Source: Kineococcus aurantiacus (GTDB lineage: Bacteria > Actinomycetota > Actinomycetes > Actinomycetales > Kineococcaceae). From it: DNA of 64,000 nt. The notes beneath the pieces are model-generated. The model ran no database searches. It was not told where the DNA came from and saw only the letters and a program-made list of their open reading frames with translations. The position numbers were made by a program, and so were the translations under genes. The stretch covers positions 1 through 64,000 of the forward strand of contig NZ_JACCBB010000002.1 in NCBI RefSeq assembly GCF_013409345.1. The letters are read 5' to 3'. This document shows, in pieces, positions 35,056-55,524 of this stretch; the first letter of the stretch is position 1, and the number at the start of each line of letters is the position of its first letter.

Positions 35056-35734
35056 AATGCCCTCCGGTTCGCTTGGTGATCTCCCTATCGGATGGGCCAT
35101 CAGGTGGGATGAGCTCTCCGACGCCGCGATGTTGTCGATCTCATTTTCGGTCCAGCGTTTCGGGCACAATGGCCGAATGTGGGTGTGACCCTGGCCCCGG
35201 GCGCACAGGAACCGCGCTTCGCGGGTGGGTCGCGGTAGTGCTCGGTCAAGTCACGTTCCACCCTGCGCTGGGTCGCGATGTGCTCGTGTTGCTGGACTGC
35301 ACACGTATGACCCCGGCACCGGCGCGACCCCTCAAGAGCAATCACCTGGCTGATGACGTACCTTGCCGAGACTCGAGCACCCAGCCGCAGCAGCACAGCG
35401 CGTGAGAAGTCGGCAAGAGGGTACGCAGTCCCACCCAGCGACGCCGTGACGTCGGCGCAAGCCGAACCACCAGCGGTGCGGCCGGGCGGCGAGGTCCAAC
35501 CTCGTCACCGCCGTGACGAGCACGAACGACGTTGCGCCCGCCGACTCCTGCGGCCGACAGGGCCAGGTGGCAGATCCACCTGGAGCTCACGCCAGCGGAA
35601 CAAGCGTGGAAGTGCCGATTCCTCAGGTCCAGGCACCATGCGCAGCACCACATTTGCCTGCTCTTGATCTAGCGTCACACTCAGGCACCAGTGCATCAGT
35701 CGGTCGTCTTCAGCAGCGCTCAACGCAGCGCCGT
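35056..35734. other. gap holding the chemoreceptor promoter; otherwise featureless
   Basis: The first 100 bases upstream of the chemoreceptor should contain its promoter, but no clear -35/-10 pair stands out. The remaining 550 bases have frames without motifs and merge into the dead transposase. Confidence 0.4.
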
Positions 35735-36775: not shown

Positions 36776-37600
36776 TCACCAGATGGTGAACCCGCCGTCG
36801 ACGAGGAGGTCAACGCCGGTGATGTAGTCAGCAGCGTCACTGAGCAAGAAGATGGCAGGTCCGGCGATGTCCTCCGGTTGCGCATTGCGTCCCAGCGGCG
36901 TGTCCCCGGCATAACCCTCCATGGCCTCGGCCTGCTCGGGGCGGCGGGTCATGGGGGTGTAGGTGTAGCCGGGGCTGATGCTATTGACGCGTACACCGCG
37001 ATCGGCCCACTCCCACGCCAAGCTGCGCCCGAGCTGGACGACGCCTGCCTTGGCTGCGTTGTAGTGCGCCTGCGTCAGGCCCCGGTTGGCGATCGTCGCT
37101 GACATCGAGGCGATGTTCACGATGGCACCGCCACCGTTGCGGAGCATCGCCTGTCCCTCGGCCTGACAGGAGACGAAGACTCCCGTCAGGTCGACGTCGA
37201 TGACCTTCTGCCACTGGCTCAGCGGCATGTTCTCCGCCGGGGCCGCGTTGGCGATGCCCGCGGCGTTGACGGCCAGGGAGATGGGCCCCAGATCCTGCTC
37301 GACGGAGCCGATCGCCGCGGCCACCGCCGCCGGGTCGGTGGCATCGGCCGTGACGGCGACCGCCCGGCCACCGACCGCCTCGATGTCGGCGACAGACCCG
37401 GCCAAGTCCGCGCCGGCCAGGTCCAAGCACCCCACGGAGGCCCCGGACGCGCCGAGGGCCAGGGCGATGGCCCGCCCGATCCCGCTGCCGGCGCCGGTGA
37501 CCAGCCCGACGCGGCCGTCCAGCCGGAAGTTGGGGGCCTTCCACCTGCGCTCGTGCGGTGTGCCCGGACCCGCTGTCGTACCCGCTGTCGCGTCCTGCAC
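36776..37600 (-). CDS. short-chain dehydrogenase, polyol/sugar dehydrogenase type
   Basis: This 274-residue classical SDR has the cofactor loop TGAGSGIGRAIALAL at residues about 34-48, then CLDLAGADLAG, whose Asp favours NAD. NAAGIANAAP, IVNIASMSATIA (catalytic Ser), YNAAK (Tyr and Lys) and VDGGFTIW at the C terminus follow. Relatives oxidise polyols such as threitol, xylitol or arabinitol to ketoses. GTG at 37600 follows GAGGAGG. It is the last gene of the 11-gene run, 61 bases after the E2 stop. I infer that it makes the ketose substrate for the FGGY kinase; the direction and substrate are not shown by the sequence. Confidence 0.9.
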   Translation of the reverse strand: MQDATAGTTAGPGTPHERRWKAPNFRLDGRVGLVTGAGSGIGRAIALALGASGASVGCLDLAGADLAGSVADIEAVGGRAVAVTADATDPAAVAAAIGSVEQDLGPISLAVNAAGIANAAPAENMPLSQWQKVIDVDLTGVFVSCQAEGQAMLRNGGGAIVNIASMSATIANRGLTQAHYNAAKAGVVQLGRSLAWEWADRGVRVNSISPGYTYTPMTRRPEQAEAMEGYAGDTPLGRNAQPEDIAGPAIFLLSDAADYITGVDLLVDGGFTIW

Positions 37601-37660
37601 GTCTGCCTCCTCGTGTCGTCTTCGCTGCCAGTCGATGTCGGGTGCGCTCGGTCCGAGAGC

Positions 37661-38410
37661 TCATCCCAGGACGCTGCGGCTCCACTGCGGTGTCTGCAAC
37701 ATCGTCCTCACGGTGCCCAAGTAGCGGGCAGCGTCGGCCCCGTCCACGATGCGGTGGTCGTAGGACAGGAAGAGGTGTGCGACGGGCCGGATCTCGATGT
37801 TCCGCCTACCGTCGGCGGCGGCGACCACCACAGGCCGATCGACTACGGTTCCCGTGCCCAGGATCGCCACCTGCGGCTGGTTGATGATGGGGGTGTCGAA
37901 GAGGGCCCCGCGGCTGCCGGTGTTGGTGATCGTGAAGGTGCCGTTGGCCTGGTCGTCCGGACCCAGTCTGCCGGTCCGGGCCCGTTCGGCGACCTCGGCG
38001 ATGGCCAGGGCCAGTCCGGTCACGTCCAGGGACCCCGCGTCGGCGATGACGGGGACCATGAGGCCGCGGTCGGTGTCGACGGCCACGGAGAGGTTGCGGC
38101 TGTCGTAGTACGTCACCTCACCGGCGTCCAGGTCGACGGCCGCGTTGACGACCGGGTGGGCGCTCAGGCCCTCCAGCGCGGCCTTGGCCAGGAAGGGCAG
38201 GAAGGTCAGCTTGGTGCCGTTGGTGTCGGCGAACCGCTGCTTCTCCTCCTCGCGCAGGGCGGCGACGTGGTGGAGGTCGACCTCGACGACGGTTGTGAGC
38301 TGCGCCGACGTCTGCAGGGACTGGACCATGCGGCGGGCGATGACCTTGCGGATGCGGGACAGCTTTTCGGTGCGTCCGGTCAGACCGGCCACGGTAGCGC
38401 TCGTGCTCAT
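37661..38410 (-). CDS. dihydrolipoamide acyltransferase (E2) catalytic domain only
   Basis: This 249-residue protein covers just the catalytic core of a 2-oxo-acid or acetoin dehydrogenase E2. It starts EKLSRIRKVIARRMVQSLQT, includes ANGTFTITNTGSRGALFDTP, and ends with the active-site HRIVDGADAARYLGTV (His and Asp of the HxxxDG motif). There is no lipoyl domain and no recognisable E1/E3-binding domain, which E2 proteins normally carry at the N terminus. The lipoyl domain is encoded separately at 46767-47024. ATG at 38410 has GGAGGAACGC ahead. It should transfer the acyl group from lipoate to CoA. Confidence 0.92.
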   Translation of the reverse strand: MSTSATVAGLTGRTEKLSRIRKVIARRMVQSLQTSAQLTTVVEVDLHHVAALREEEKQRFADTNGTKLTFLPFLAKAALEGLSAHPVVNAAVDLDAGEVTYYDSRNLSVAVDTDRGLMVPVIADAGSLDVTGLALAIAEVAERARTGRLGPDDQANGTFTITNTGSRGALFDTPIINQPQVAILGTGTVVDRPVVVAAADGRRNIEIRPVAHLFLSYDHRIVDGADAARYLGTVRTMLQTPQWSRSVLG

Positions 38411-38458
38411 GCGTTCCTCCTGCGTGTCGAGGCGGTGGGTGGCGGGGGGGGCGGATGC

Positions 38459-39475
38459 TCAGCGACGGGCGAGCAGGCTGGAGGCCTCCTGGGCCGCGGG
38501 GGACTCCTTGTCCAGGTGCGCGAGCTGCTCGGGGATCGCGACCCCGCGCTTCCTCATCGCCCCGGCCCACAACCGGCCCGCGCGGTAGGACGAGCGCACC
38601 AGCGGGCCGGCCATGACGCCCGCGAAGCCCATCTCCTCGGCCGCCCGGCTGAACTCGACGAAGGCCTCGGGCTTGACCCACCGCTCCACCGGGTGGTGCC
38701 GCGACGTGGGGCGCAGGTACTGGGTGATCGTGATGATGTCGCAGCCGGCGTCGTGCAGGTCCTGCAGCGCGGCCAGGACCTCCTCGTCGGTCTCGCCCAT
38801 CCCCAGGATGAGGTTCGACTTCGTCACCAGGCCCGCGTCGCGGCCCTGCGTGATGACGTCCAGGGACCGCTCGTACCGGAACGCCGGCCGGATCGACTTG
38901 AAGATCCGCGGGACGGTCTCGACGTTGTGCGCGAAGACCTCCGGGGCGGCGTCGAAGACCTGCTGCAGCAGCTCGGGCCGGCCGTTGAAGTCCGGGACGA
39001 GGATCTCGACGCCGGTGTGGAAGTCGCCGTCGGAGTTCAGCGCGTGCGTCTGCCGGATCGTCTCGGCGTACAGCCACGCCCCGCCGTCGGCGAGGTCGTC
39101 ACGGGCGACGCCGGTGATGGTCGCGTAGCGCAGCCCCATCGTGCGGATGCTCTCGGCCACCCGGCGGGGCTCGTCGCGGTCCAGCGGCGACGGCTTGCCC
39201 GTGTCGATCTGGCAGAAGTCGCAGCGGCGCGTGCACTCGGAACCGCCGATGAGGAACGTGGCCTCGCGGTCCTCCCAGCACTCGTAGATGTTGGGGCAGC
39301 CGGCCTCCTCGCACACCGTGTGCAGGCCGCCGGACCTCACCAGGCCCTTGAGCTCGGTGTACTCCGGGCCGGTGCGCGCCTTGGTGCGGATCCAGTCGGG
39401 CTTGCGCTCGATCGGCGTCTCGGCGTTGCGCGCCTCGATGCGCAGCATGCGCCGGCCCTCCGGTGCGATCGTCAT
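38459..39475 (-). CDS. lipA: lipoyl synthase
   Basis: This 338-residue radical-SAM enzyme inserts two sulfurs into a protein-bound octanoyl group. Both iron-sulfur sites are present: the auxiliary-cluster cysteines in [12 protein letters not shown] and the radical-SAM motif [39 protein letters not shown] and the C-terminal RSSYRAG (the Ser ligand of the auxiliary cluster) are typical. ATG at 39475 has TAGGAA ahead. LipA is usually encoded next to lipB with housekeeping genes. A copy inside a catabolic operon suggests that it serves the stand-alone lipoyl protein made from the same message. Confidence 0.95.
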
Positions 39476-39510
39476 CCGTTCCTACCTCCGGTCCCGCGGT
39501 CGGTGTGGTC

Positions 39511-40938
39511 TCAGGCGTGACTGTGCAGTGGTTTCCCGGCCAGCGCCAGGTAGGTCTCCCCGAGCGCCTCGTTCTGCGTGGGGTGGGCGTGGACCAGTTG
39601 CGCGAGGCGCTGCACGTCGGGGCCGAGGTCAACGACCAGTTGCGCCTCCCCGGCCTGTTCGCTGATCCGCGCCCCCACCATGTGCAGGCCAAGGATCCTG
39701 CCCTCGCGCAACCGCACCGCCTTGACCAGCCCGGCGGTCTTGAGGACTTGGCTGCGCCCGTTCCCGCCCAGTTCGTAGGTGAGGGTGTCGATCTCCCCGG
39801 CCCCGAAGTGCTCGCGCGCCCGCTCCTCGCTCCACCCCACCGAGACGACCTCCGGGTCGGAGTAGACGACCCGCGGGATGCCGCTCTCGTCGATCACGGC
39901 CGGTTCGAGTCCGGCGATGTCCTCGGCGACGAAGATGCCCTGCTGGAAACCCCGGTGGGCCAGTTGCAGTCCGGCGACGACGTCGCCGGCGGCGTAGATC
40001 CGCGGGTTGCTCGTGCGCAGGCGGTCGTCCGTGCGGATGAACCCGCGCTCGGTCTGCACGCCCTGTTCCTCCAGACCCAGACCGGCAGTGCGGGGACCGC
40101 GTCCCACCGCCACCAGGAGAACCTCCCCGCGCAGTTCGGAACCGTCGGAGCAGACGACCCGCACGTCGTCCTGGGTCGGCTCCACTTCCGTGCAGCTCGT
40201 CCTCGTCTTGACCTTGATCCCCCGCCGCCGCAGCGCCTTCTCCAACGCGGCGGACACGGTGGCGTCGTCCTGGGGGAGCAGACGGGGCAGCGCCTCGACG
40301 AGAGTGACGGCCGTCCCGAAGGACCGCATGAGGCTGGCGAACTCCACCCCGATGGCTCCCCCGCCCAGGACGATCATCGAGGACGGCAGGGTCGGCAGCG
40401 CCAGCGCGTGCTCGCTGGTCAGGATGCGCCGGCCATCGACGGTGATGCCGGGCAGGCTTCGGCTCTGCGAGCCGGTCGCGACGACCACGTGCCGACCGCG
40501 GTAGCGCCGTCCCCCGGCCTCCACGCTGGGTCCGTCGACGAGGACGCCGTCGGCCGGCACCACCTCGATCCCCCGGCCCGCCACGAGGTGCTCCAAGCCC
40601 CGGGCCAGCCGGTGGACGACTCCGTCCTTGTAGGCGTGCAGCTTCGCGACGTCGACGTGACCGAAGTCGCTCACGACGCCGAAGGTCTCGGAGGTGCGCA
40701 CGGCGTCGGCGACCTCGGCGGCGTGCAACAGCGCCTTGGTGGGGATGCAGCCCGAGTGCAGGCAGGTGCCTCCCAGCCGGTCCCCCTCGACGAGGACGAC
40801 GCTGAGGCCGAGTTCGGCGCAGCGCAGGGCGCAGGCGTACCCCGCGCTGCCGCCCCCCAGGACGACGACGTCGTGCCCCCGGTCCTGCGCCGGGTCGGCC
40901 GCGACGGGCTGCTCCCGGATCGGTTCCTGCTCGGACAT
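39511..40938 (-). CDS. lpdA: dihydrolipoamide dehydrogenase (E3)
   Basis: This 475-residue flavoprotein reoxidises the lipoyl group and reduces NAD. It shows FAD binding in VVLGGGSAGYACALRCAELG and the redox disulfide in GGTCLHSGCIPTKALLHAAE. NAD binding is seen in IVLGGGAIGVEFASLMRSFG, and a second FAD motif in IYAAGDVVAGLQLAHRGFQQ. The catalytic His-Glu pair of the partner subunit is in HAHPTQNEALGE. It has the full family length. ATG at 40938 follows GGAGGACC. It lies between the permease and lipA in the 11-gene run and supplies the third component of the complex. Confidence 0.95.
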   Translation of the reverse strand: MSEQEPIREQPVAADPAQDRGHDVVVLGGGSAGYACALRCAELGLSVVLVEGDRLGGTCLHSGCIPTKALLHAAEVADAVRTSETFGVVSDFGHVDVAKLHAYKDGVVHRLARGLEHLVAGRGIEVVPADGVLVDGPSVEAGGRRYRGRHVVVATGSQSRSLPGITVDGRRILTSEHALALPTLPSSMIVLGGGAIGVEFASLMRSFGTAVTLVEALPRLLPQDDATVSAALEKALRRRGIKVKTRTSCTEVEPTQDDVRVVCSDGSELRGEVLLVAVGRGPRTAGLGLEEQGVQTERGFIRTDDRLRTSNPRIYAAGDVVAGLQLAHRGFQQGIFVAEDIAGLEPAVIDESGIPRVVYSDPEVVSVGWSEERAREHFGAGEIDTLTYELGGNGRSQVLKTAGLVKAVRLREGRILGLHMVGARISEQAGEAQLVVDLGPDVQRLAQLVHAHPTQNEALGETYLALAGKPLHSHA

Positions 40939-40999
40939 GCGAGGTCCTCCTACCTGGGTTGCGACGCTGTTGACTGACCCTGCGGACGGGTGGGCGGTG

Positions 41000-42013
41000 C
41001 TACTTCACGACCGCCGCGCTGCGCCGGTCGAAGGTCAAGAGCACGGCGAGGATGACGACGAAACCCTGGACGATCTGCTGAGCCGCGGGGGCCAGGCCGA
41101 TGATGAGCATGCCGTTGGTGAGTTCGACGAGGATGAGGGTCCCGATGAGACCGCGGGCCGCACCGCCTTGGCCCCCCGACAACGGGGTGCCACCCATGAC
41201 GATCGCCGCGATCGACGGCAGGAGGTAGCCGTTGCCGATGTCCGGGGTGGCGGCCGTGGTGGAGAAGAGGACGAGGATCCCGGCCAGGGCGCAGCACAGG
41301 CCGCTGACGGCGAACCCGATGCTCTTGACGCGCCGGATGTTGACCCCTACGACGTTGGCCGAGCGCTCGTTGCCCCCGACGGCGTAGATGAAGCGGCCGG
41401 TCGCCGTCCGGCGCAGCACCACGATGACGAGCCCCCACAGGATCAGCGCGTAGATCAGGGGCAGCGGGATGACGCCGCCCACGCTCTGGCGGAAGGAGGC
41501 GTCCAGCGGACCGCTGGGCAGGGTGACGGGGAACCCTCCCGACAGCAGCAGCGCGACGCCCCCGAGGGCGAAGGACGTACCCAACGTCACCAGGAACGAC
41601 GGGAGTCTCAGGTAAGAGACGATCAACCCGTTCAGGGCCCCGAGCAGCAGGCCCAGGGGCAGCGCGAGCGCGACGGACCACTGGCCGAAGTGCTGCGCGA
41701 AGAGCCCGGCGCATACGGCCGTCACGGACAGCAGCGCCCCCACGGACAGGTCGATGCAGCCCATGAGGATCGGGGCCGTGCCCGCGGCGACGACGAGCAG
41801 GAGCACCGAGGTCTGCCGCAGCATGCTGTCGATGTTGCGGGGGGACAGGTACTGCGGGTTCATGATCGTGAAGATGATGGGCAGGATGACCAGAGCGGCG
41901 ACCAGCAGGGCCATCTGCACGCGGTCCCGGTTGCGCCGGGCGTCGGCGCTCCTGCCGCGTCGGGTGGAGGGGGTGGCCGTCGGTGGGACGGTGGGGGCGG
42001 TGGGGGTACTCAC
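41000..42013 (-). CDS. sugar ABC transporter permease, RbsC type
   Basis: This inner-membrane subunit of a CUT2 importer has 337 residues from the chosen start and about 8-10 hydrophobic segments. Family marks are TAPILMGCIDLSVGALLSVT, LRLPSFLVTLGTSFALGGVA and GGNERSANVVGVNIRRVK. The proline- and threonine-rich N terminus is cytoplasmic. GTG at 42013 has GAGGGAG at good spacing. An alternative GTG at 42046 overlaps the stop of the ATPase gene by four bases but has no ribosome site. It forms the transporter with the two preceding genes. Confidence 0.93.
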   Translation of the reverse strand: MSTPTAPTVPPTATPSTRRGRSADARRNRDRVQMALLVAALVILPIIFTIMNPQYLSPRNIDSMLRQTSVLLLVVAAGTAPILMGCIDLSVGALLSVTAVCAGLFAQHFGQWSVALALPLGLLLGALNGLIVSYLRLPSFLVTLGTSFALGGVALLLSGGFPVTLPSGPLDASFRQSVGGVIPLPLIYALILWGLVIVVLRRTATGRFIYAVGGNERSANVVGVNIRRVKSIGFAVSGLCCALAGILVLFSTTAATPDIGNGYLLPSIAAIVMGGTPLSGGQGGAARGLIGTLILVELTNGMLIIGLAPAAQQIVQGFVVILAVLLTFDRRSAAVVK

Positions 42014-42042
42014 GGTGTCTCCCTCGCTGGGCTCGGAGCTGT

Positions 42043-43551
42043 TCACACCAGTTCGCTGAGGTTGGGGTTCTGGCCGTTGCGGCAGTCGAAGACCGCCCGC
42101 ACGGCTCCATCGCGCAGCACGACCATGCGGTCGCAGATTGGCAGCAGTTCCTCGGGTTCGTCGCTGGCGATGACGACGGCGGTCCCGCGACCGGACGCCT
42201 CCACGACGAGCCGGTAGATCTCCGACTTGGCGTGCACGTCGATCCCCCGGGTTGGCTTGTCGAGGACCACGACACGGGCGTGGTCGGACAGCACGCGGGC
42301 GACCAGCAGCTTCTGCTGGTTACCGCCCGACAAGGACCCGGCCTGCTGCTCCAGGGAGGCCACCTTGACGCTATACCGCTCGACCAGCTCCTGCGCGAAC
42401 GACACCTCCGCCCGGGGACGGCGGGCCAGGTCGCCGCGACCCTCGACGGCGATGGCCTCGGCGGTGAGGTTGGTCCGGACCGGGTGCATGAGCGCCAGCC
42501 CCTCCCCGCCCCGGTCGGCCGGGACGAAGCGGATGCCGGCGGCCAGGTGGGCGCGGACGTCGTGGCGCAGCCGGTGCTGCCCCACCGAGATCGTGCCCCC
42601 GTCGGCGTGGTCCAGGCCGGCGATGCAGCGGACGATGTCGGACTTCTCCTCCGACTCCCCGACCAAAGCCACCACCTCCCCGGCGTGAACGGTGACGTCG
42701 AAGGCCTCGCTGAGGGAGGGCAGGTCGAGGTCGCGGACCTCCAGGACGGGTTCGCCGTCGGGGCGGTCAGTCAGGCGGGTGTACGTGTTGACGCGCGCCT
42801 CCCCGACCATGAGTTCGGCCAGCTCCTCCGGAGTGGTCGTGGCCGGGTCCGGTTCGCCCACGTCGACCCCCTCGCGCAGGACGAGGACCCGGTCGCTCCA
42901 GTCGAGCAGTTCGCTGCCGCGGTGGGTCGTGAGGATCACGCCCATCCGGTGCCGCATCGCGTTGACCCGGCTTTCCAGGAAGTCGACCTGGGACTGGGTC
43001 AGCCCGCTGGTGGGCTCGTCGAGCAACAGGACAGGCGTCTCGAAACCCCTCAGGTGCGCCATGTACAACGCCTTGGCGATCTCCACGAGCTGCTTCTCGG
43101 CCATGGAGAGGTCACCGACCCGGCGGCGCGGCTCGATGTCGGTCAGCGCGATGGACGCCAAGAACTCCGCCACCCGCGTGCGGGCCACGCTGGGCAGTAG
43201 GAAACCTGCCCGGCGCACGTACCGCTCCGACCCGAGGGTGATGTTCTCGGCGACGGTGAGGTTGTCGATGACCGACAGTTCCTGGTAGATCCGGAACACC
43301 CCGGTGGCGGTGGCGTCTCCGTAACCCCGGGGGGCGTAGGAACGGCCGCAGATCCGCATCTGGCCCGTGTCGGGGGCGAAGACCCCCGACAGCAGGTTCA
43401 GCAGGGTCGACTTGCCCGCCCCGTTGTGACCGGCCAACCCGAGGACCTGGCCCACCTGGAGGCTGAAGGAGATACCACTGAGGGCGGGCACCCCGTTGAA
43501 CGACTTTCCCAGCCCCTCGACCTCCAGGAGCGGGGGTTCGGCCGACGGCAT
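42043..43551 (-). CDS. sugar ABC transporter ATP-binding protein, RbsA type (two ATPase domains)
   Basis: This 502-residue protein has two fused ATPase halves. The first half has Walker A GHNGAGKST, signature LSMAEKQLVEIAKAL and Walker B VLLLDEPTSGL. The second half has a degenerate Walker A (GESEEKSD) but a good signature LSGGNQQKLLVARVL and VVVLDKPTRGIDV. A defective second Walker A is normal for RbsA proteins. ATG at 43551 overlaps the binding-protein stop by one base (TGATG), and the gene ends at the permease, so SBP, ATPase and permease are coupled. It powers import for the downstream pathway. Confidence 0.94.
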   Translation of the reverse strand: MPSAEPPLLEVEGLGKSFNGVPALSGISFSLQVGQVLGLAGHNGAGKSTLLNLLSGVFAPDTGQMRICGRSYAPRGYGDATATGVFRIYQELSVIDNLTVAENITLGSERYVRRAGFLLPSVARTRVAEFLASIALTDIEPRRRVGDLSMAEKQLVEIAKALYMAHLRGFETPVLLLDEPTSGLTQSQVDFLESRVNAMRHRMGVILTTHRGSELLDWSDRVLVLREGVDVGEPDPATTTPEELAELMVGEARVNTYTRLTDRPDGEPVLEVRDLDLPSLSEAFDVTVHAGEVVALVGESEEKSDIVRCIAGLDHADGGTISVGQHRLRHDVRAHLAAGIRFVPADRGGEGLALMHPVRTNLTAEAIAVEGRGDLARRPRAEVSFAQELVERYSVKVASLEQQAGSLSGGNQQKLLVARVLSDHARVVVLDKPTRGIDVHAKSEIYRLVVEASGRGTAVVIASDEPEELLPICDRMVVLRDGAVRAVFDCRNGQNPNLSELV

Positions 43552-44918
43552 CAGGCGTCGTAGCTGATGCCGAACACGGTCTTGCCCGTGCTCGTCAGCT
43601 TGATCGCCGCTGCGTAGGGGTTCTTCCTGACGTGCTGCTGGTACTCGGCCCCGATCGACTGGACCTTGCCAGCGTCCAAAGACTTCTGCAGGGCGTCGGG
43701 GAAGGAGTAGTCCGCGGGTTTGGGGGCCTTCAGATCCTGCTCGAAGAACGGGACCGGGTCGATGGGCGCGATGGCGACCTGCGAGTCCCAGGCGTCTGGG
43801 TTCAAATGGCGCGACATCGCCTTCCAGTCGAAGCCGGTCGACCCTTGGTTGGTGATCCGCTTGTACTCCTTCGCAGCATCCGGCGTGTCGATCACCAGGG
43901 AGTCCTGGAAGATCATCTCCTCGACCGGGTCGTGAGGCACGCCGTTCATGGCGTCGTAGTTGCGGACCACGCCGTAACCGCCCAGCCAGATGCCGAAGAT
44001 CGATTGGCAGGCCACCACATTCGGGCCCGAGATCAGCTTGTCGAGCATGACGGCGATCTCGTCGGTGCCGCCGACCTTGATGTGCGTGTTGCCGGCCTCC
44101 TCCAGCACCGACACCGCACCCAGCGCGGAGGAGGAGTTGTGCGATATGATGGCGTCGATGTTGTCGTACTTCGACATCCACGCCTGGACCACCGGCCGGG
44201 TGTCCTGGCCGTTCTCGTTGCCGTTCTGCCGGTCGAGCACCTTGATGCCTGGGTAGGCGGCGACGGCCTGGTCGAATCCGCTCTCGCGCAGCAGGCTGGT
44301 TCGGTTCGTGGGGGCGCCCTGCAGGTACAGGACGTTGCCGGAGCCCCCGATGGCCTCGAAGACCGCCTCGCTCATCGCCTTCTGCCCCAGCACCTCGCGG
44401 GGGGTGAAGAGCGTGACGTAATCGTTGCCGTAGATCGTCTCGGCGGGCACCATCCACGCCGTGGCGGCGAAGGCCGTCACCAGCTTGATGTCCTGCCCGG
44501 ACAGACTCTGCCCCATCTGGCGGACGGCGTCGTTGTTGATGGGGAACGTGACGACCTGGCCGACGCCGGCGGTGCTGGCCGAGCGCAGCTGCTCGATCTG
44601 GGTGGCCGAGGACCCGTTGTAGCTCTGCATGCGGTAGGTGAGTCCCAGCGCCTCGGCCGCCTCGGAGCCACCGGCCTGCCACAGGGTGAAGTACTCGTTG
44701 GTGGTGGTGGGCACCGAGGCCAGGACGACCTTGGCGTCCCCGGCGGGTGCGCCTCCGGCGGTGCCGCTGCCGGCCGGGTCGCTGCAGCTGGCCAGCGCCA
44801 CCCCCGCGGGCAGGCTCAGGGCGCCCAGGCCCATCCCCTTCAGGAGGGAGCGGCGCGGCACCCCGCCGGAACCGGACGCGCTGCAGGAGGCCTGACCGGA
44901 TTTGCGAAGACTCGTCAT
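43551..44918 (-). CDS. sugar-binding lipoprotein with twin-arginine signal (RbsB-type importer)
   Basis: This 455-residue protein is longer than typical RbsB. Its leader carries PRRSLLKGMGLGALSLPAGV, then LASC, so a twin-arginine lipoprotein is expected. The mature part begins VVLASVPTTTNEYFTLWQAG and shows DAIISHNSSSALGAVSVLEE and IKVGGTDEIAVMLDKLISGP. These are periplasmic-binding type I features. ATG at 44918 has AGAGGAA ahead. It binds the substrate of the 11-gene pathway outside the membrane. The C-terminal 100 residues (FDWKAMSRHLNPDAWDSQ onward) are not usual for simple ribose binders and suggest another ligand. Confidence 0.92.
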   Translation of the reverse strand: MTSLRKSGQASCSASGSGGVPRRSLLKGMGLGALSLPAGVALASCSDPAGSGTAGGAPAGDAKVVLASVPTTTNEYFTLWQAGGSEAAEALGLTYRMQSYNGSSATQIEQLRSASTAGVGQVVTFPINNDAVRQMGQSLSGQDIKLVTAFAATAWMVPAETIYGNDYVTLFTPREVLGQKAMSEAVFEAIGGSGNVLYLQGAPTNRTSLLRESGFDQAVAAYPGIKVLDRQNGNENGQDTRPVVQAWMSKYDNIDAIISHNSSSALGAVSVLEEAGNTHIKVGGTDEIAVMLDKLISGPNVVACQSIFGIWLGGYGVVRNYDAMNGVPHDPVEEMIFQDSLVIDTPDAAKEYKRITNQGSTGFDWKAMSRHLNPDAWDSQVAIAPIDPVPFFEQDLKAPKPADYSFPDALQKSLDAGKVQSIGAEYQQHVRKNPYAAAIKLTSTGKTVFGISYDA

Positions 44919-44965
44919 TGAAGTTCCTCTATATCGGTGGGCGGATGACGGCGGGCCGGGGAGGG

Positions 44966-46531
44966 CTAGTTCGTCGTGGTGCGGACCAGCGCCTGCAGAT
45001 CCTGGAAGCTGCCCGAGAGCTGGGAGTAGACCTTCTTGTACAGCTGGAAGTACTCGGCGTAGAGGGCGTGCGTCTGCGGGTCGGGTTCGAGGTGCTCGAT
45101 GTAGACGGCCCCCCGCCGGGCGACGGAGAAGTCGGGGAAGACGCCGGTGCCCACCCCGGCCAGGATCGCGTTCCCCAGGGGGGCGCCCGTCCGGTTCTTC
45201 ACCAGCGCCGTCGGCACGCCGAACACGTCGGTGATGATGCGCCGCCAGACCTCGCTCTTGGCCCCGCCCTCGTTGAAGATCAGCGGGTGGTTCATGCTCA
45301 GGCCGCTGCGGGTCAGGACGGTGAGGGAGTCCAAGAGGGCGTAGGCGACCCCCTCCAGGAAAGCCCGGAAGATGTGCCCGCGCTCGTGGTGCAGCGACAA
45401 CCCGAACACGACACCGCGGGCCGCGGTGTCCCAGATCGGGGAGCGCTCCCCCATCAGGTAGGGCAGCACGATGAGGCCCTCGCTGCCCGGCGGGATGTCC
45501 CGGGCCTGGAGGGTGATCACGTCGTAGGAGCTGACGTGCAACTGCCGCGCGACGTCGACCTCGGTGGCTGCGAAGGTGTCGCGCAGGAAGCGCAGGGCCT
45601 GTCCCCCCGTGGTGGTGACGGCGACCGCGGAGTAGGTGTCCTGCGGCGAGGTCGTGTAGGGGATGTTGACCATGCGCAACCCGTCGGGCGAGGACAGGTA
45701 GTCGACGTTGCGGTGCACGACTCCCAGCACCCCGCTGGTGCCTAGGTTCAGCTGCATGTCGCCGGGTTCGACGGCCCCGCCGGCGATCCAGCCGGCATTG
45801 CAGTCGACCTGACCGGCGACCACGACCGTCCCCGGGTGCAGCCCCGTCGCGGCCGCCGCCGCCGCGGTGACGGACCCGACGACGTCCGTGGGGTCGTGGA
45901 CGTCCGGCAGGAACTGGGGATCGATGTCGAGCTTGTTGAGGATGTCGTGGCGGAAGGTACCGCCCCGGATGTCGTAGGCGACGCCGTAGAACACCGCCGA
46001 ACTGCGGTTCACCACGAACTGCCTGGTCAGGCGGGAGACGATGAACCCCTCGATCGTCAGCGCCTTGTGCACTCGGCGATAGGTGTCGGGACGGTTGCGC
46101 TGGAACCAGAACAGATTCACGAGGCTGGGGTGGTCCTCGATGCGGTTGGCGGTGACCGCGTCGAGCGTGGGCTCGCCGATGAGATCGCGGATGATGTCGA
46201 CCTCGGCGGTGGCACGGCGGTCCATGAGGTTCAGCGCCGGGGCCACGGGGTCGCCGTGTGTGTCGACGAGGACCATGGAGGGCACGGCGCTGGACACGCC
46301 CACCCCGGCGATGTCCTGGGGCAGGCAGGAGGCCTCCCGCAGGACCTGCTCGGTGAGTTCGCAGGTGACGCGCCAGTACGTCTCCGGGTCGTGCTCGGAC
46401 CAACCCGGGTGGGGGTGCTGGATCGCGTATTCGCGGAAGGCGTAGCTCAGCACCTTGCCCTGGTCGTCGATGACACAGGCCTTGGCACCGCCGGTGCCGA
46501 AGTCCATGCCGAGCAGGTGTGGGGCTGCCAT
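44966..46531 (-). CDS. FGGY-family carbohydrate kinase (xylulokinase-like)
   Basis: This 521-residue kinase phosphorylates a sugar or ketose with ATP. The N-terminal phosphate loop is GMDFGTGGAKACVIDDQGKV. The catalytic-base region is VVVAGQVDCNAGWIAGGAVE, with the Asp expected in FGGY kinases. NLGTSGVLGVV binds ATP phosphates, and GERSPIWDTAARGVVFGLSL matches the FGGY signature area. ATG at 46531 follows GAGGAGA. It lies between the lipoyl-domain gene and the importer. Phosphorylation ahead of aldolase-type cleavage is the expected role. Whether C1 or C5 is modified cannot be read from the sequence. Confidence 0.92.
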   Translation of the reverse strand: MAAPHLLGMDFGTGGAKACVIDDQGKVLSYAFREYAIQHPHPGWSEHDPETYWRVTCELTEQVLREASCLPQDIAGVGVSSAVPSMVLVDTHGDPVAPALNLMDRRATAEVDIIRDLIGEPTLDAVTANRIEDHPSLVNLFWFQRNRPDTYRRVHKALTIEGFIVSRLTRQFVVNRSSAVFYGVAYDIRGGTFRHDILNKLDIDPQFLPDVHDPTDVVGSVTAAAAAATGLHPGTVVVAGQVDCNAGWIAGGAVEPGDMQLNLGTSGVLGVVHRNVDYLSSPDGLRMVNIPYTTSPQDTYSAVAVTTTGGQALRFLRDTFAATEVDVARQLHVSSYDVITLQARDIPPGSEGLIVLPYLMGERSPIWDTAARGVVFGLSLHHERGHIFRAFLEGVAYALLDSLTVLTRSGLSMNHPLIFNEGGAKSEVWRRIITDVFGVPTALVKNRTGAPLGNAILAGVGTGVFPDFSVARRGAVYIEHLEPDPQTHALYAEYFQLYKKVYSQLSGSFQDLQALVRTTTN

Positions 46532-46766
46532 GAGGCTCTCCTCATCGAGTGCGTGGTGGCACGTGGGTGGAACAGCTGTCGGGTGCCTGGCGTTGCCCGG
46601 GCGCCGCCGGCCGGTCTGGGCGGCGGCGACGTCGGGCTGTGGGCCCGGCAGCTCCGCCGGGTGGTGCGCTGGCCGCCGTGACGCGCGGACGTGACGTGAC
46701 GACGGCGGCCGCCCCGCCGGACCATCGAGAGGGCACCGGGCCCCCCTCACGTCCGGCGATTCCTCC

Positions 46767-47024
46767 TCAGGAAGGGACGTCGTCGCCGGCTTCGCCGACG
46801 TAGGCGATGACGGTACCCGATTCGACCTCGCTGCCGGCGGGGAACACCTGTTTGAGCAGAACCCCTTCGGCGACGCTCTCGACCTCGAGCTCGGTCTTGT
46901 CGGTCTCGACGCTCAGCAACGGGTCGCCCATCTCGACCGACGCGCCCTCCTCGACCAGCCAGGCGGCGATGGTGCCGCCGCTGACGGTCTGTCCCAACTC
47001 CGGCATGATGATCGCCTCGGCCAT
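46767..47024 (-). CDS. stand-alone lipoyl-domain protein (E2 swinging arm)
   Basis: This 85-residue protein is a single biotinyl/lipoyl hammerhead domain. It begins AEAIIMPELGQTVSGGTIAA, and the modified lysine is in SVETDKTELEVESVAEG. It ends GTVIAYVGEAGDDVPS with no linker or catalytic domain. In ordinary complexes this domain is the N terminus of E2. Here the catalytic part is a separate gene at 37661-38410, some 8 kb further along the run. It starts at ATG 47024 behind GAGAGGAA, 35 bases after the E1 stop. A gap of 235 bases to the FGGY kinase has no gene. Confidence 0.93.
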   Translation of the reverse strand: MAEAIIMPELGQTVSGGTIAAWLVEEGASVEMGDPLLSVETDKTELEVESVAEGVLLKQVFPAGSEVESGTVIAYVGEAGDDVPS

Positions 47025-47059
47025 GATGCGGTTCCTCTCCTCGGTGCGACGAATCGGGT

Positions 47060-49210
47060 TCAGCGGTCGGCGAGGACCGAGCGGACGGCCTGGGCCAGGT
47101 CGTCCCGGCTGGGCAGGACCGCCGATTCCAGCCACGGTGCGAAGGGCATCGGGACGTCCTTGCTGGCCACTCGGCGGACCGGGGCGGCGAGGTGCCCGTG
47201 CAGCTCCTCGCTGACGCGGGCCGCGACCTCGGCGCCCCAGCCGCCGGTGCGGTGCGCTTCGTGGGCGATGACCAGCCGCCGGGTCCGGGTCACGCTCTCC
47301 AGCAGCGAGTCCCAGTCGAAGGGGGACAACCACACGGGGTCGATGACCTCGACGCTGATCCCCTCCTCCGCCAGCTCCTCCGCCAGGCTCAGCGCCGCGT
47401 AGAGCTGCGTGAAGGTCGCCAGCACCGTGACGTCGCTGCCCGGCCGGCGCAACCGGGCCTGGCCGACCTCGACGGCGTAGTCTCCCTCGGGCACGAACGC
47501 CCGGGTGTCGATCGACCCCGCTTCCTGCCGCTTCTTGGAGCCGTAGAGCAGCTTGTGCTCGAAGACCAGCACCGGGTCGGGGTCGCGCAGCGCTGCCTTG
47601 ATCCCGCCCTTGGCGGTGTACGGGTCGGAGATGCACAAGACCTTCAGGCCCGGCACGTGCATGAAGAAGCTCTCCGGGCTCTGCGCGTGCTGCGCCCCGC
47701 GCTGGGTGGCCCCGACTGGACAGCGCAAGACGGTCGGAATGTTGAGCCGGGCCCCGGACATGTAGCGCAGCTTGGCGGCCTCGTTGACGAGTTCATCCAT
47801 GCCCTCGAAGACGAAATCGGCGTACTGCAGGTCCGGCAGGGTGCGCATGCCGCCGATGGCTGCCCCGATCGAGACCCCCATGATGGCCTTCTCGCTGATG
47901 GGGGTGTCGACGACCCGGTCGCGGCCGAACTCCTCGGCCAGGCCAAGGTAGATGCCGAAGGCTCCCCCGAAGCCGCCGGGGACGCCGACGTCCTCACCCA
48001 GCAGGACGACGGAGGCATCGGCCCGCATCTCTTCGCTGATCCCCTCCTTCAACGCGTCAGCGATGCTGAGCTTGCGCTCCTCGGGGCCGTCGGCCAGGAC
48101 CGGCGCGATCCCGTGCGACTGCCCCGGGGCGGCGAAGATGGCGAACGGGTCGAGCGCGCTCTGGGCAGCCGCCTTGGGGGCCTCCTGAGCGAACTTCAAG
48201 GCCGCTTTGATGGTTTCCTTGCCCGCCGCGACGGCCGCGGCGGTCTCCTCCTGGGTGGCCACGCCACGCTCGACCAGCGAGTCCTTCAGCTGGTCGATCG
48301 GGTCGCGGTCCTTCCAGAACTTCTCCTCCTCCTTCGTGCGGTAGCCGCGTGAGTCGCCCCGGCTGTGCCCGACGTAGCGGTAGGTGAGGAACTCCAGCAG
48401 CGTGGGACCCTCGCCGGCCCGGGCTCGGGCCACCGCGCGTTCGGAGGCCTCGAGCACCGCCAGGACGTTCATCCCGTCGACCTGTTCACTGGGGATGCCG
48501 TACGCGGCGCCCCGGGAGGCGATGTCGACGTTGCGGGTGGTCTCGTGAAAGGGCGTGGAGGCGCCGTACATGTTGTTCTCGCACACGAACACCACCGGCA
48601 GGTTCTTCGCCGCGGCGTAGTTCACGCCCTCGTGGAACGCGCCCTCGTTGACCGCCCCGTCCCCGAAGAAGCAGGCGACGACGTCGTCACCGCCGCGGTG
48701 CTGCAGCGCCATCGCCAGCCCCGGGGCGATGGTGATGCCCCCGCCGACGATCGCGATGGAGGGCAGGATCCCGATGGCGGGGTCACCCAGGTGCATCGAC
48801 CCCCCGCGTCCACCCAGGCAGCCGGGTTCGCGGCCGTAGACCTCGGCCATGGCCGCGGACGGTTCCATGCCCTTGGCCAGCGCGTGCCCGTGCGGGCGGT
48901 GCGTGGAGGTGATCCAGTCGCTGTCGCGCAGGGTCGTGCAGACGCCCACCGCGACGGCTTCCTGCCCCTGGGACTGGTGCAGCGTGCCCGGGATCTCGCC
49001 CTGCAGGAAGCGCAGGTAGGCTATCTGCTCGAACTGGCGGATGACGACCATCCGCTCCAACATCGCCAGCGCGGCGTCCTTGCCCACCCGGGTCAGGGTT
49101 GCGGAGTGGTCCTCGCTGCCGACGACTACCAGGGTCTGCAGGTGGTCCTCGACCGCGGACTGCTGCTCGGGGGTCATCTCCGGCATGGTGTCCAGGGAGT
49201 TCTCCGTCAT
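47060..49210 (-). CDS. fused E1 alpha-beta thiamine-diphosphate dehydrogenase (2-oxo-acid or acetoin type)
   Basis: This 716-residue protein joins what are normally two subunits. The alpha half (residues about 1-350) has the thiamine-diphosphate motif GDGAVNEGAFHEGVNYAAAK, with CENNMYG, and the phosphorylation-loop region YRYVGHSRGDSRGYRTKEE. The beta half (about 385-716) has VVLLGEDVGVPGGFGGAFGI, ISEKAIMGVSIGAAIGGMRT and EAHRTGGWGAEVAARV. It should decarboxylate a 2-oxo acid, or cleave an alpha-hydroxyketone as acetoin dehydrogenases do, and then acylate the lipoyl protein. ATG at 49210 overlaps the aldolase stop (ATGA). The joining stretch (about 345-385) is alanine-rich. Confidence 0.93.
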   Translation of the reverse strand: MTENSLDTMPEMTPEQQSAVEDHLQTLVVVGSEDHSATLTRVGKDAALAMLERMVVIRQFEQIAYLRFLQGEIPGTLHQSQGQEAVAVGVCTTLRDSDWITSTHRPHGHALAKGMEPSAAMAEVYGREPGCLGGRGGSMHLGDPAIGILPSIAIVGGGITIAPGLAMALQHRGGDDVVACFFGDGAVNEGAFHEGVNYAAAKNLPVVFVCENNMYGASTPFHETTRNVDIASRGAAYGIPSEQVDGMNVLAVLEASERAVARARAGEGPTLLEFLTYRYVGHSRGDSRGYRTKEEEKFWKDRDPIDQLKDSLVERGVATQEETAAAVAAGKETIKAALKFAQEAPKAAAQSALDPFAIFAAPGQSHGIAPVLADGPEERKLSIADALKEGISEEMRADASVVLLGEDVGVPGGFGGAFGIYLGLAEEFGRDRVVDTPISEKAIMGVSIGAAIGGMRTLPDLQYADFVFEGMDELVNEAAKLRYMSGARLNIPTVLRCPVGATQRGAQHAQSPESFFMHVPGLKVLCISDPYTAKGGIKAALRDPDPVLVFEHKLLYGSKKRQEAGSIDTRAFVPEGDYAVEVGQARLRRPGSDVTVLATFTQLYAALSLAEELAEEGISVEVIDPVWLSPFDWDSLLESVTRTRRLVIAHEAHRTGGWGAEVAARVSEELHGHLAAPVRRVASKDVPMPFAPWLESAVLPSRDDLAQAVRSVLADR

Positions 49211-50109
49211 CGGGTCGCCTTCCCGGAGGATCCGAACACCTGCATGAGGCGGCGGATCTCCGTCGTCAGGGCCTGCCCGGCGCGGGTGTTGACGTCCTCG
49301 GGTAGCCGGGAGCCGAAGAGCAGGTTCGGGTCGTTGCCGCTGTCGGGGCCGACCGCCTCGCGCAGCGCGTTCCCGAAGACGTGCTTCAACCGGGTCCCCA
49401 CGTTGATCTTCGTGATGCCCGCGGCGATGGCCGCCTGCATCTGGTCCGCCGGCGTCCCCGAACCGCCGTGCAGGACCAACGGGACGTCCACGGACTCACC
49501 GATCTCGTGGATGCGGTCCACCCGGATCGTCGGCACGTAGTCCGAGGTCACGAAGTGGACGTTCCCGACCGCGACGGCGAGGTAGTCGACGCCGGTCTCC
49601 TTGACGAAGTCGACGGCCTGGGAAACCTCGGTCATGGCCCCGATTGAGGTGTCGATCTGACCGTCGATGCTCATCTCGGCCAGGGCGCCGACCTCGCCTT
49701 CCACGGTGATGCCCAAGCCGTGGGCCGCCGCGGTCAACGCTGCGGTGTCGGCGATGAGCCGGTCCCAGGACCAGCCCTGGGTGTGCATCATGACCGAGTT
49801 GTACCCGGCGCCGAGGGCCGCGGCGGCCTCGGTGAAGTTCTCCGCCTCGTTGAAGAGGATACCGGTGGGAACCGACGAACGCCGGGCCAGGGCGGCGCAC
49901 GCGGCGCCGTACAACTCCACTCCCACGCTAGAGAGCCACTCGTGGTTGGCGGACAGACCACCGATGCCGATGATCACCGGGGACCGCTCGGCCTCGGCGG
50001 CCGCGATCGTCGCTTCGAGGCTGTAGATGTCCCAGGATTCGAAGTAGCCGACCGCATAGCGGCCCTTGGCCGCGTCGGCAAGAAGCTCAGGAAGACCCAT
50101 GACTGCCAT
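49207..50109 (-). CDS. class II aldolase-like protein with altered metal site
   Basis: This 300-residue (beta/alpha)8 protein is of the fructose/tagatose-bisphosphate aldolase class II family. EGEVGALAE (Glu), GNVHF (His) and VPLVLHGGSGTP (His) keep three metal or phosphate-site elements, and TKINVGTRLKHVFGNALREA is typical. However, the usual HLDHG motif, which holds the catalytic Asp and a zinc His, reads LFNEAENFTEA here. It may act on a different substrate or use a different base. ATG at 50109 has GAGG ahead; the longer GTG start at 50139 lies in the promoter region. It is first in the run. Cleavage of a phosphorylated ketose is inferred. Confidence 0.85.
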   Translation of the reverse strand: MAVMGLPELLADAAKGRYAVGYFESWDIYSLEATIAAAEAERSPVIIGIGGLSANHEWLSSVGVELYGAACAALARRSSVPTGILFNEAENFTEAAAALGAGYNSVMMHTQGWSWDRLIADTAALTAAAHGLGITVEGEVGALAEMSIDGQIDTSIGAMTEVSQAVDFVKETGVDYLAVAVGNVHFVTSDYVPTIRVDRIHEIGESVDVPLVLHGGSGTPADQMQAAIAAGITKINVGTRLKHVFGNALREAVGPDSGNDPNLLFGSRLPEDVNTRAGQALTTEIRRLMQVFGSSGKATR

Positions 50110-50414
50110 GCTGTTCGCCTCATCCTCACCGATGTGCACGTCCGCACATTCGTGCGCTTGACTCAGGTTGACCCGTGTGCTCGCTCACGTCAAGGGCCTG
50201 ACGCACCCACTAGCAACCGTCGCCCTCTGCATCACGCCCGTTGCGGATAGTCATCACTCATCTACAAGGCTGCGCAGCACCCGTCGTTGGCGTGACTCCA
50301 GCAGGTTGAACGCGCGAGCAGAGTCCAGCGGGCGGTGGCTATCGTGGACAGAGCGCTGACCGGAAGCACCGTGGATCCCCACCACGTACCTCGGCGGCAC
50401 GTCAGGAGGAACAC
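50110..50414. promoter_or_regulatory. divergent promoter region of the 11-gene run and the SorC regulator
   Basis: This region contains overlapping inverted repeats TGTGC-N5-GCACA (50134-50148) and CGCAC-ATTC-GTGCG (50143-50156), 25 bases or more before the aldolase start. They are candidate SorC operators. On the minus strand, TTGACG near 50190 could be a -35. AGGAGGA at 50404-50410 precedes the SorC start. Confidence 0.4.
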
Positions 50415-51404
50415 ATGCCCCAGCCGGTGAGTCCAGAGCGTCTTGCTCAAGCGGCGTTCTGGTACTACGTCCAAGATCTGGGGCAGGCCGAAGTCGCCCG
50501 ACGTCTGAACACCAGCCGTTCCAACGTCTCGCGCTTGTTGCGCTCCGCACGGGAGAAGGGCATCATCCGCTTTGAGATCGTGCACCCGATCCAGCGCGAC
50601 CTCCTGCTGGAAGAGCGCCTGCGGGCGCGGTTCGGCCAGGACGGTGTTGACGAGTTCATCGTGGCGGCAACGTCCGGCGAGTACTTCGACGCCCCGTCCC
50701 AGGAGACCGGCATGCTGGCCGTGGCCCGCTCGGCAGCCGACTGGCTGGGGAGTAAGCTGTTGGACGGACAGACCCTTGGACTCTTCTGGGGCAGCACCGT
50801 TCGCACAGTGGTCGACGTAGCCCGCTTCGAGCACCGCATCGACACCCATGTCGTGCAGCTGGGCGGGGAGTGGAGCGACGAACCGAACCGCTCGGGTCAC
50901 AACCTGGTCCGCGACCTCGCCATGAAGCTGGGAGGCCGCTACACCTACTTCAACGCTCCCGCCTTCGCCGCCACCGCTGCCGACGCTGAGGCGCTCTTGA
51001 GCGAACCGCAGGTAGCTCGCTCGCTTGACGCGGCACGTTCGGCCGACGTCTGCCTGGTCGGAGTGGGCGCTTTTCCCGAGGGCACCACAGCCTTGTTCAT
51101 CGAACGCGCTCACGCCACAACCGCGGAGATCGAAGAAGCTGAACGCGCCAACGTCGTGGGGCAGTTGGCGGGACGATTCTTCGATGCCGAAGGTCGTCAG
51201 GCTGACATTGGTCTGCACCGACGACTCATCTCCCTGGATCTGACCGAGGTGCGCGGGGTGACCACCGTCGCTGTCGCCGCCAGCGGGATTGGGAAGGCCA
51301 AGGCTGTGCGGAGCGCCATGCGAGGCAAGATGGTAGATGTTCTCATCTGCGACCAAGCTCTAGCGACGGCCCTGCTAGAAGTCGGTGACGGCGCACCCAC
51401 CTGA
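50415..51404 (+). CDS. SorC/DeoR-type sugar-binding transcriptional regulator
   Basis: This 329-residue regulator has an N-terminal helix-turn-helix (GQAEVARRLNTSRSNVSRLL at residues about 24-43). The SorC effector domain follows, related to sugar-phosphate isomerases: DGQTLGLFWGSTVRTVVDVA, DTHVVQLGGEWSDEP, DVCLVGVGAF and GVTTVAVAASGIGKAKAVRS. SorC proteins such as LsrR and DeoR respond to phosphorylated sugars. ATG at 50415 follows AGGAGGA. It is divergent from the 11-gene run and is its obvious regulator. The effector is probably the product of the FGGY kinase, by analogy with LsrK and LsrR. Confidence 0.92.
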   Translation: MPQPVSPERLAQAAFWYYVQDLGQAEVARRLNTSRSNVSRLLRSAREKGIIRFEIVHPIQRDLLLEERLRARFGQDGVDEFIVAATSGEYFDAPSQETGMLAVARSAADWLGSKLLDGQTLGLFWGSTVRTVVDVARFEHRIDTHVVQLGGEWSDEPNRSGHNLVRDLAMKLGGRYTYFNAPAFAATAADAEALLSEPQVARSLDAARSADVCLVGVGAFPEGTTALFIERAHATTAEIEEAERANVVGQLAGRFFDAEGRQADIGLHRRLISLDLTEVRGVTTVAVAASGIGKAKAVRSAMRGKMVDVLICDQALATALLEVGDGAPT

Positions 51405-55507: not shown

Positions 55508-55524
55508 GATACTCACGATTCGCT

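Follow-up and report, generated by a model that had tools for sequence, protein, structure and literature searches.

An actinobacterial polyol-type operon with a private dehydrogenase complex and a fused E1 that may cleave acyloin phosphates

The window analysed here is the first 64 kb of contig C2 of Kineococcus aurantiacus (assembly GCF_013409345.1, contig NZ_JACCBB010000002.1, positions 1 to 64,000); the actinobacterial genome consists of two contigs (5.03 Mb), of which C2 has 174,614 bases. The window carries an operon of eleven co-directional minus-strand genes and, 275 bases away and divergent from it, a gene for a SorC-type regulator (Table 1). The operon encodes a sugar importer (RbsBAC), a kinase of the FGGY family, a short-chain dehydrogenase/reductase (SDR), a protein with a class II aldolase fold, lipoyl synthase (LipA), and an E1, lipoyl carrier, acyltransferase (E2) and dihydrolipoyl dehydrogenase (E3) that together make up the full gene set of an acetoin-dehydrogenase-like complex. 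The cluster looks like a self-contained device for importing and splitting a polyol, possibly a methyl-branched one like compounds of the plant isoprenoid route, and this would be a new mode of feeding.

Table 1. Genes of the operon and its regulator, with coordinates in the window and supporting matches
Feature	Coordinates	Strand	Evidence
SorC/DeoR-type regulator	50415..51404	+	Pfam Sugar-bind 175 bits
Class II aldolase-fold protein, N97 E98 H119 in place of catalytic residues	49207..50139	-	Pfam F_bP_aldolase 200.9 bits
E1 alpha-beta fusion, proposed acyloin-phosphate cleaving thiamine pyrophosphate (TPP) enzyme	47060..49210	-	Pfam E1_dh, Transket_pyr, Transketolase_C; fingerprint T76/H104/R284
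Free-standing lipoyl protein, 85 aa, ETDK motif	46767..47024	-	Pfam Biotin_lipoyl
FGGY kinase, XylB/LsrK-like	44966..46531	-	XylB 310 bits (cut-off 380); autoinducer-2 (AI-2) kinase 211.9 (cut-off 528)
RbsB-like substrate-binding protein	43551..44918	-	Pfam Peripla_BP_4 114.3 bits; start set by ribosome-binding site
RbsA-like ATPase	42043..43551	-	orthologues 55-62% in L024, L025, L026, L028, L030
RbsC-like permease	41000..42046	-	orthologues ~70-78% in L024, L025, L026, L028, L030
E3 dihydrolipoyl dehydrogenase	39511..40938	-	TIGR01350 433 bits, above cut-off 408.8
LipA lipoyl synthase	38459..39475	-	TIGR00510 330 bits, above cut-off 310.25
E2 acyltransferase core	37661..38410	-	Pfam 2-oxoacid_dh 247.7 bits, only Pfam match
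SDR oxidoreductase	36776..37600	-	PRK06114 357.5 bits (cut-off 360); GolD/DthD family 210.7 (cut-off 286)

Open reading frame (ORF) lists and start-site checks place all twelve genes in the order given by a preliminary description of this DNA; ten of the proteins were identified by Pfam and NCBIfam scans, and RbsA and RbsC by homology to annotated ATP-binding cassette (ABC) proteins of a related locus (L030). Gaps between the eleven genes run from -4 to +61 bases with a single exception, the lipoyl protein and kinase genes being 235 bases apart. A scan of the operon for sigma-70 consensus promoters found nothing and terminator candidates reach only the level of shuffled sequence, so that co-transcription is deduced from the spacing. 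The expected motifs are intact, namely ETDK in the lipoyl protein, HRIVDG in E2, CxxxxC and HPT in E3, the LipA cysteines, and TGxxxGxG and YxxxK in the SDR. The aldolase-fold gene may alternatively start at an ATG at residue 11. The E2 lacks a lipoyl domain and consists of the catalytic core, its top NCBIfam match being SucB_Actino (336.9 bits, cut-off 423.45), and the lipoyl protein matches acetoin dehydrogenase E2 best (70.7 bits across the lipoyl part of that family, cut-off 307). The importer, kinase, dehydrogenase and SorC-type regulator bear out the polyol or ketose logic that the preliminary description had read into the cluster, as well as the coupling of these genes to a private E1/E2/E3 complex and a variant aldolase. 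Overall its observations are confirmed and its interpretation is partly supported.

Ten related loci share the core of this operon, nine from an aldolase scan of genome contigs and one from a plasmid collection, and their number is a lower bound. In all ten the genes for the aldolase, the fused E1 and the lipoyl protein follow one another in this order, a recurrence beyond chance. The preliminary description had proposed to look across genomes for fused E1, lipoyl protein, LipA and kinase together; E1 and the lipoyl protein do occur together, with the aldolase, in every locus, and a LipA is encoded in L028 (73% identical to the window's) and, partially, in L022. Regulator homologues are 48-51% identical in seven of the ten loci and 30% in L027, and none was seen in L023 and L024. 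A GlpK-like FGGY kinase is encoded in nine loci and a GlpD-like dehydrogenase in eight (one truncated at the locus end). The window and L023, whose XylB-like kinases are 64% identical, have neither; both kinase types occur in L024, L025, L026 and L030, the last also with RbsBAC and a 72% homologue of the window SDR positioned after the FGGY kinase. Because these sets (kinase then dehydrogenase, or dehydrogenase then kinase) are interchangeable, they are perhaps two routes that meet at one ketose phosphate. No IspD or IspF match was found in the ten loci. In L021 and L022, the nearest relatives of the window locus, a gene for a beta-keto acid cleavage enzyme of the BKACE family (7464-8657 and 4631-5578, respectively; Pfam-checked in L022 only) comes before the regulator.

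The private complex appears to combine a transferred core with locally recruited parts. A search with the aldolase-fold protein gave matches in 88 of 98 other kin genomes, of which the stronger show about 30-40% identity along most of the protein and 45% in one 100-residue fragment, with no orthologue among the matches listed. The operon E3 is 60% identical to the host's chromosomal lpd product and E2 is 59% identical to a chromosomal sucB-type E2, which has lipoyl domains (two matches of the operon lipoyl protein) that the operon E2 lacks. LipA is far nearer its chromosomal counterpart (G000:C1:693538-694554), at 97% in both DNA and protein (99% in one table). The lipoyl synthase that had been described as the operon's own is thus present, but as a recent copy of the housekeeping gene, or through gene conversion. 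In the related loci E2 (L025, L026, L028 and L029) and E3 (L026 and L028) are only 34-37% identical to the window's, and L028 and L022 add the LipA proteins mentioned above; private complexes of this kind thus seem to have arisen repeatedly.

Many of the nearest plasmid relatives of the window E1 outside its own family lie in sugar or polyol clusters. Directly upstream of E1 in Agrobacterium, Aminobacter, Pseudoroseomonas, Terrarubrum and S. meliloti is a gene for a 440-residue oxidoreductase, and the Agrobacterium protein matches PDB 3UPL/3UPY (4e-210), which we take to be the Brucella enzyme DRL (DXR-II), resembling 1-deoxyxylulose 5-phosphate (DXP) reductoisomerase (DXR). DXR-II converts DXP to methylerythritol 4-phosphate (MEP), as given in an excerpt of PMC3847144. 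A DRL row lies within ~0.3 kb of 28 of the 39 plasmid E1 rows listed (window-type excluded), many of these strains being near-identical. Conversely, among 38 plasmid DRL rows with 52% identity or more, 28 lie next to a listed E1 row, and the one looked at among the ten others, from Phyllobacterium, has no E1 within 14 kb. Pseudoroseomonas, Aminobacter, Terrarubrum and Priestia each have glucitol-type (Gut) phosphotransferase system (PTS) genes within ~13 kb of DRL. In Pseudoroseomonas the E2 passes the cut-off for acetoin dehydrogenase E2 (362.1 against 307) and in Agrobacterium it equals the cut-off for pyruvate dehydrogenase (PDH) acetyltransferase, so that acetyl is the likely acyl group.

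The strong part of our argument is a set of residues that the window E1 has in common with these DXR-II-linked enzymes. The window E1 is homologous to PDH and AcoAB across its length and reaches the cut-off of none of the nine NCBIfam families listed for it (328.5 against 393.85 for PDH alpha, 298.1 against 454 for PDH beta). Comparison of E1 columns gave a three-residue fingerprint: T76 (Phe in PDH and acetoin E1s), H104 (Tyr in PDH, His in acetoin E1s) and K/R284, two residues past the loop His. All three are found in 11/11 E1s linked to the aldolase-fold gene (ald-linked) and 16/16 DRL-linked rows but in 0/19 other E1s, and nine further DRL-linked E1s, fetched later, also carry them (25/25 in total); the E1 of L102 has two of the three. 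Window-type E1s have T, H and R in all eleven members, against F, H and E at positions 76, 104 and 284 in the Acinetobacter acetoin cluster, with only H104 in common. Among 29 E1-alpha loci from relatives the full set occurred in L072 only, and its neighbourhood, examined later, contained a SorC regulator, a Gut PTS and a DRL 46% identical to the Priestia protein; the fingerprint had pointed to a locus with DRL and a glucitol-type PTS in advance.

Residues Y102-alpha and H271-alpha of a PDH E1 lie in the active site according to an excerpt of PMC2663715, and were mapped by motif to H104 and H282. The putative active-site placement of T76 and R284 follows from alignment and that excerpt, because the predicted E1 model (pLDDT 66.5) is too poor for use. 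The fingerprint suggests that these enzymes cleave a DXP-like acyloin to acetyl-coenzyme A (acetyl-CoA) and a triose phosphate, rather than oxidise a 2-oxo acid, which had been offered as one role of the complex. In E1 trees the ald-linked (support 100/100) and DRL-linked sequences (95/87, with C. difficile inside) form separate groups. Another E1 group (L036, L058 and L102) has a gene resembling aldehyde dehydrogenase and a sugar importer as neighbours, with SDRs in two of the three loci and no DRL seen there.

A DRL search of 296 genomes of the phylum gave matches in 48, at 51 places, and the neighbourhoods of all were scanned, some of them short at contig ends. Closer and weaker homologues were divided at 282 bits, a value chosen after the scores were seen and flanked by L129 (285) and L130 (274). 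The 42 closer places have E1 in 18 (within 3.4 kb), a Gut PTS in 16 and a SorC regulator in 16. Outside one family (f28) E1 is near in 18 of 20 places (f34 11/11, f32 3/4, f25 2/3, f47 1/1, f83 1/1) and a Gut PTS in 16 of 20. E2 accompanies E1 in 17 of the 18 places, and the remaining locus, L151, ends 2.6 kb past DRL. The nine weaker homologues, including the host's own, have no Gut PTS and a single E1-like fragment, at a distance of 7.4 kb. Seven actinobacterial places have an IspD homologue close to DRL, at up to 0.3 kb in L165, L170, L172 and L175 and up to 4.5 kb in L129, L132 and L173; E1 is present in five of these and absent from L172 and L175. DRL therefore has at least two settings, of which a single one includes the complex, an anabolic role being likely in the other. 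Members of f28 are small-genome actinobacteria (1.2-2.1 Mb; for example L134, L145, L149 and L164) in which DRL is common with no E1 or Gut PTS nearby. The Listeria locus L039 (7790-12602) has adjoining SorC, DRL, GutM and Gut PTS genes with no E1 near, suggesting salvage of methylerythritol, not breakdown; the sorbitol PTS reportedly imports 2-C-methylerythritol into Salmonella.

The DRL-linked E1/E2 operons resemble the window in the E1 fingerprint, the SorC-type regulator and genes for polyol uptake and phosphorylation. They differ in having DRL, usually a Gut PTS, and separate E1 alpha and beta genes, where the window has the aldolase-fold protein, an FGGY kinase, RbsBAC and a fused E1. 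The order in L128 (G150:C4:2641000-2659000) is SorC-DRL-E1-E2-GlpD-FGGY. The GlpD-like proteins of L021 and L022 share 53 and 52% identity with the GlpD of that operon, compared with 33-34% for the host's housekeeping enzyme. On pRM41A of Sinorhizobium meliloti Rm41 the genes run DRL-E1-E2-lpdA-lipA. As a group these operons were found in this analysis; DXR-II itself had already been described (PMC3847144, excerpt).

We propose that such operons split a 1-deoxy acyloin phosphate, derived from 2-methyltetritols, into acetyl-CoA and a triose phosphate, the window being a variant without DRL; we hold this tentatively, at somewhat short of an even chance. From known activities, DRL operons with E1 would convert MEP to DXP by DRL running in reverse, and acyloin cleavage of DXP would give acetyl-lipoyl and glyceraldehyde 3-phosphate. 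That an E1 may handle DXP is suggested by E. coli mutants in aceE, encoding PDH E1, which yield DXP (the wild type did not raise DXP), as reported in an excerpt of PMC3424233. For the window, the polyol would enter via RbsBAC, and oxidation by the SDR followed by phosphorylation by the FGGY kinase would yield a ketose 1-phosphate; most related loci would reach the same compound through the GlpK-like kinase and the GlpD-like dehydrogenase, with oxidation beside the phosphate end. The aldolase-fold protein, having kept its phosphate-binding half and not the cleavage residues, might then rearrange the ketose 1-phosphate to a 1-deoxy acyloin phosphate, which the TPP/lipoate complex would cleave as acetoin dehydrogenase cleaves acetoin. 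The acetyl group would pass to the free lipoyl protein and through E2 to CoA, with release of triose phosphate and reoxidation of lipoate by E3. The likeliest substrate would be 2-C-methylerythritol or another 2-methyltetritol: methylerythritol would give HOCH2-C(OH)(CH3)-CO-CH2OP, and an alpha-ketol shift, the type of rearrangement that DXR performs, would convert this to CH3-CO-C(OH)(CH2OH)-CH2OP, the products being acetyl-CoA and dihydroxyacetone phosphate (DHAP). The scheme, offered as a proposal only, gives every gene a task and retains for E1 an acetyl donor and a phosphate, as the fingerprint suggests. Its weak part is the window's substrate and the rearrangement, and we regard the joint reading, in which the window operon is a second form whose class II aldolase fold has turned alpha-ketol isomerase, as rather unlikely. 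No breakdown pathway for 2-methylerythritol or DXP turned up in listings from a free full-text library that covers few subscription journals, and no match to a described pathway with exactly this gene set came up there, in line with the preliminary description.

The aldolase-fold protein reaches the cut-off of none of the 20 NCBIfam families listed. Its AlphaFold2 model (pLDDT 80.9, pTM 0.83) has a class II aldolase fold with sulfofructosephosphate (SqiA) aldolases as the top PDB matches (TMq 0.77-0.80). The class II ketose-bisphosphate aldolases (KbaY/GatY, SqiA, YdjI) have the fold and the phosphate-binding residues in common with it, and E147, E149, H195, H224, G226, S227, N246 and T249 are retained in its family. 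Where those enzymes have an Asp-His pair and a DGS region, however, all eleven members have Asn97-Glu98 and HTQGW, with H119. Control class II aldolases from related genomes have Asp-His in 18/19 (the remaining one is misaligned by one column) and D119 in 19/19. It is plausible that the substrate binds by a DHAP-like phosphate end, and ordinary aldol cleavage is doubtful because the Asp-His pair is lost.

The protein might nevertheless still be an aldolase, with Glu98 as a metal ligand. From a ketose 1-phosphate it would then release DHAP together with acetaldehyde, glycolaldehyde being the other short aldehyde considered, and the complex would oxidise the aldehyde to acyl-CoA by way of TPP and lipoate. 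This is near the first view of the locus, in which the aldolase step gave DHAP and a small carbonyl compound. The retained fold, the phosphate-site residues (G226, S227, N246 and T249), the two His ligands (H195 and H224) and a kinase and dehydrogenase logic that suits a ketose 1-phosphate all fit it. The Asp of the pair, presumably D83 in the Giardia aldolase, is nonetheless Asn throughout the family, and the adjacent His is Glu. A D83A form of the Giardia enzyme was crystallised with fructose 1,6-bisphosphate (title of 3gb6), and for such an aldehyde a plain acylating aldehyde dehydrogenase would be enough. We consider this reading improbable; of the original claim, the variant aldolase stands and standard cleavage is weakened.

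Unbranched tetritols or pentitols are a quite improbable alternative, in which erythritol or threitol would give erythrulose phosphate and the complex would release glycolyl-CoA. The resemblance of the SDR to the GolD/DthD family (below cut-off) would suit them, and the kinase-then-GlpD order is reminiscent of the erythritol pathway. Glycolaldehyde phosphate would be an awkward product, however, and fingerprint E1s lie mostly beside DRL, whose known substrate pair is DXP and MEP (PMC3847144, excerpt).

Its homology to PDH and AcoAB might make the E1 part of an ordinary spare pyruvate or acetoin dehydrogenase, placed in a sugar operon by chance. This is very unlikely given the linkage of aldolase, E1 and lipoyl protein in all ten loci, the family scores and the absence of the three residues from the other E1 rows, and a plain PDH or acetoin dehydrogenase was set aside on cut-offs and fingerprint. 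The acetoin dehydrogenase complex (AcoABC and Lpd, sometimes with lipA) has in common with the window the THRxHGH motif and TPP/lipoate acyloin cleavage, the latter as proposed here for the window, and the acetoin cluster of an Acinetobacter plasmid (L054) also has lipA, with lpdA, acetoin reductase and butanediol dehydrogenase genes. Unlike acetoin dehydrogenase, which has Phe and Glu in place of T76 and R284, the window complex has a fused E1, a free-standing lipoyl protein and a SucB-like E2 core, and is embedded with a kinase, an aldolase-fold protein and a sugar importer. A 2,3-butanediol/acetoin reading was rejected, the SDR scoring 187.3 bits where the meso-2,3-butanediol dehydrogenase family requires 270.

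It is highly improbable that fingerprint E1s make DXP-like acyloins, replacing DXP synthase beside DRL and IspD, with the window E1 a relative in other use. The IspD homologues near DRL and the ispD-ispF genes near the C. difficile E1 would fit, yet neither E2 nor lipoate nor E3 is required to make DXP, and E2 is almost always found with E1; the uptake PTS and SorC-type regulators indicate feeding, and the ald loci have no IspD or IspF match. In the C. difficile E1 cluster (L037/L043) a lipoate ligase gene lies between E1 and ispD-ispF, and an IspF-like frame was read by eye beside L101. Least probable is a variant of AI-2 (4,5-dihydroxy-2,3-pentanedione, DPD) degradation with the complex in place of the LsrF thiolase, to which the LsrR-like regulator, LsrK-like kinase score and RbsB-family importer point and which was set aside, since kinase (211.9 against 528) and regulator (LsrR 111.7 bits against 486; DeoR, 141.5, also under cut-off) fall below curated cut-offs, XylB scores higher, and GlpK/GlpD-like partners in relatives misfit DPD. 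AI-2 breakdown likewise ends in acetyl-CoA and DHAP. The Lsr system is like the window in regulator type, kinase superfamily, importer type and the acetyl-CoA and triose phosphate predicted here, but uses a thiolase where the window has a TPP/lipoate complex; no LsrF or LsrG family was named among the listed hits of the ten scanned window proteins.

Several observations weigh against the acyloin-phosphate scheme. The fingerprint occurs in the C. difficile and Fuscovulum E1s without DRL in the stretches seen, and so is not tied to DRL alone. In the trees neither the branching order among the ald, DRL, acetoin and PDH clades nor a sister relation of ald-linked and DRL-linked E1s is resolved; joining these two E1 groups was not rejected (p-AU 0.341), nor was joining ald-linked with acetoin-type E1s (0.164), so that the common residues may reflect inheritance or convergence. 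DRL is often found without E1, in all 22 closer places of f28 (0/22 with E1), in L172 and L175 (next to IspD), and in Phyllobacterium and Listeria. Closer-type DRL and Gut PTS are absent from the ten ald loci and from contig C2, with only a 33% DRL homologue in L025. L128 holds both DRL and a GlpD-like gene, which the two-route scheme leaves unexplained, and we know of no alpha-ketol isomerase with a class II aldolase fold.

DXR-II has so far been treated as a redundant isoprenoid enzyme. In an excerpt of PMC3847144 the authors ask how it evolved in strains that have DXR-I, and report confirmed DXR-II activity in Finegoldia magna, in which they found no other MEP or mevalonate genes. Since part of the DXR-II family is linked to a polyol PTS and to a complex proposed to cleave acyloins, a catabolic role can be offered as a testable answer for that part. 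If true, the scheme would provide a degradation route for 2-methyltetritols, which occur as metabolites in plants and also form in air when isoprene is oxidised. A novel reaction for the class II aldolase fold is also suggested by the window operon.

Contig C2 was not labelled a plasmid, because a crude ORF scan showed no ParA-type P-loop. Directly downstream of the SDR gene (window 35980-36540) are frames that by eye resemble a broken insertion sequence (IS)-type transposase (VPQRVTELV...); a comparable beginning occurs at C2:103725-104120. Past the operon end is a gene for a chemoreceptor-like protein (33442-35169), and beside the regulator (52612-60387) are genes for a secreted sialidase-like protein, an ABC transporter and a glycosidase, all identified by eye.

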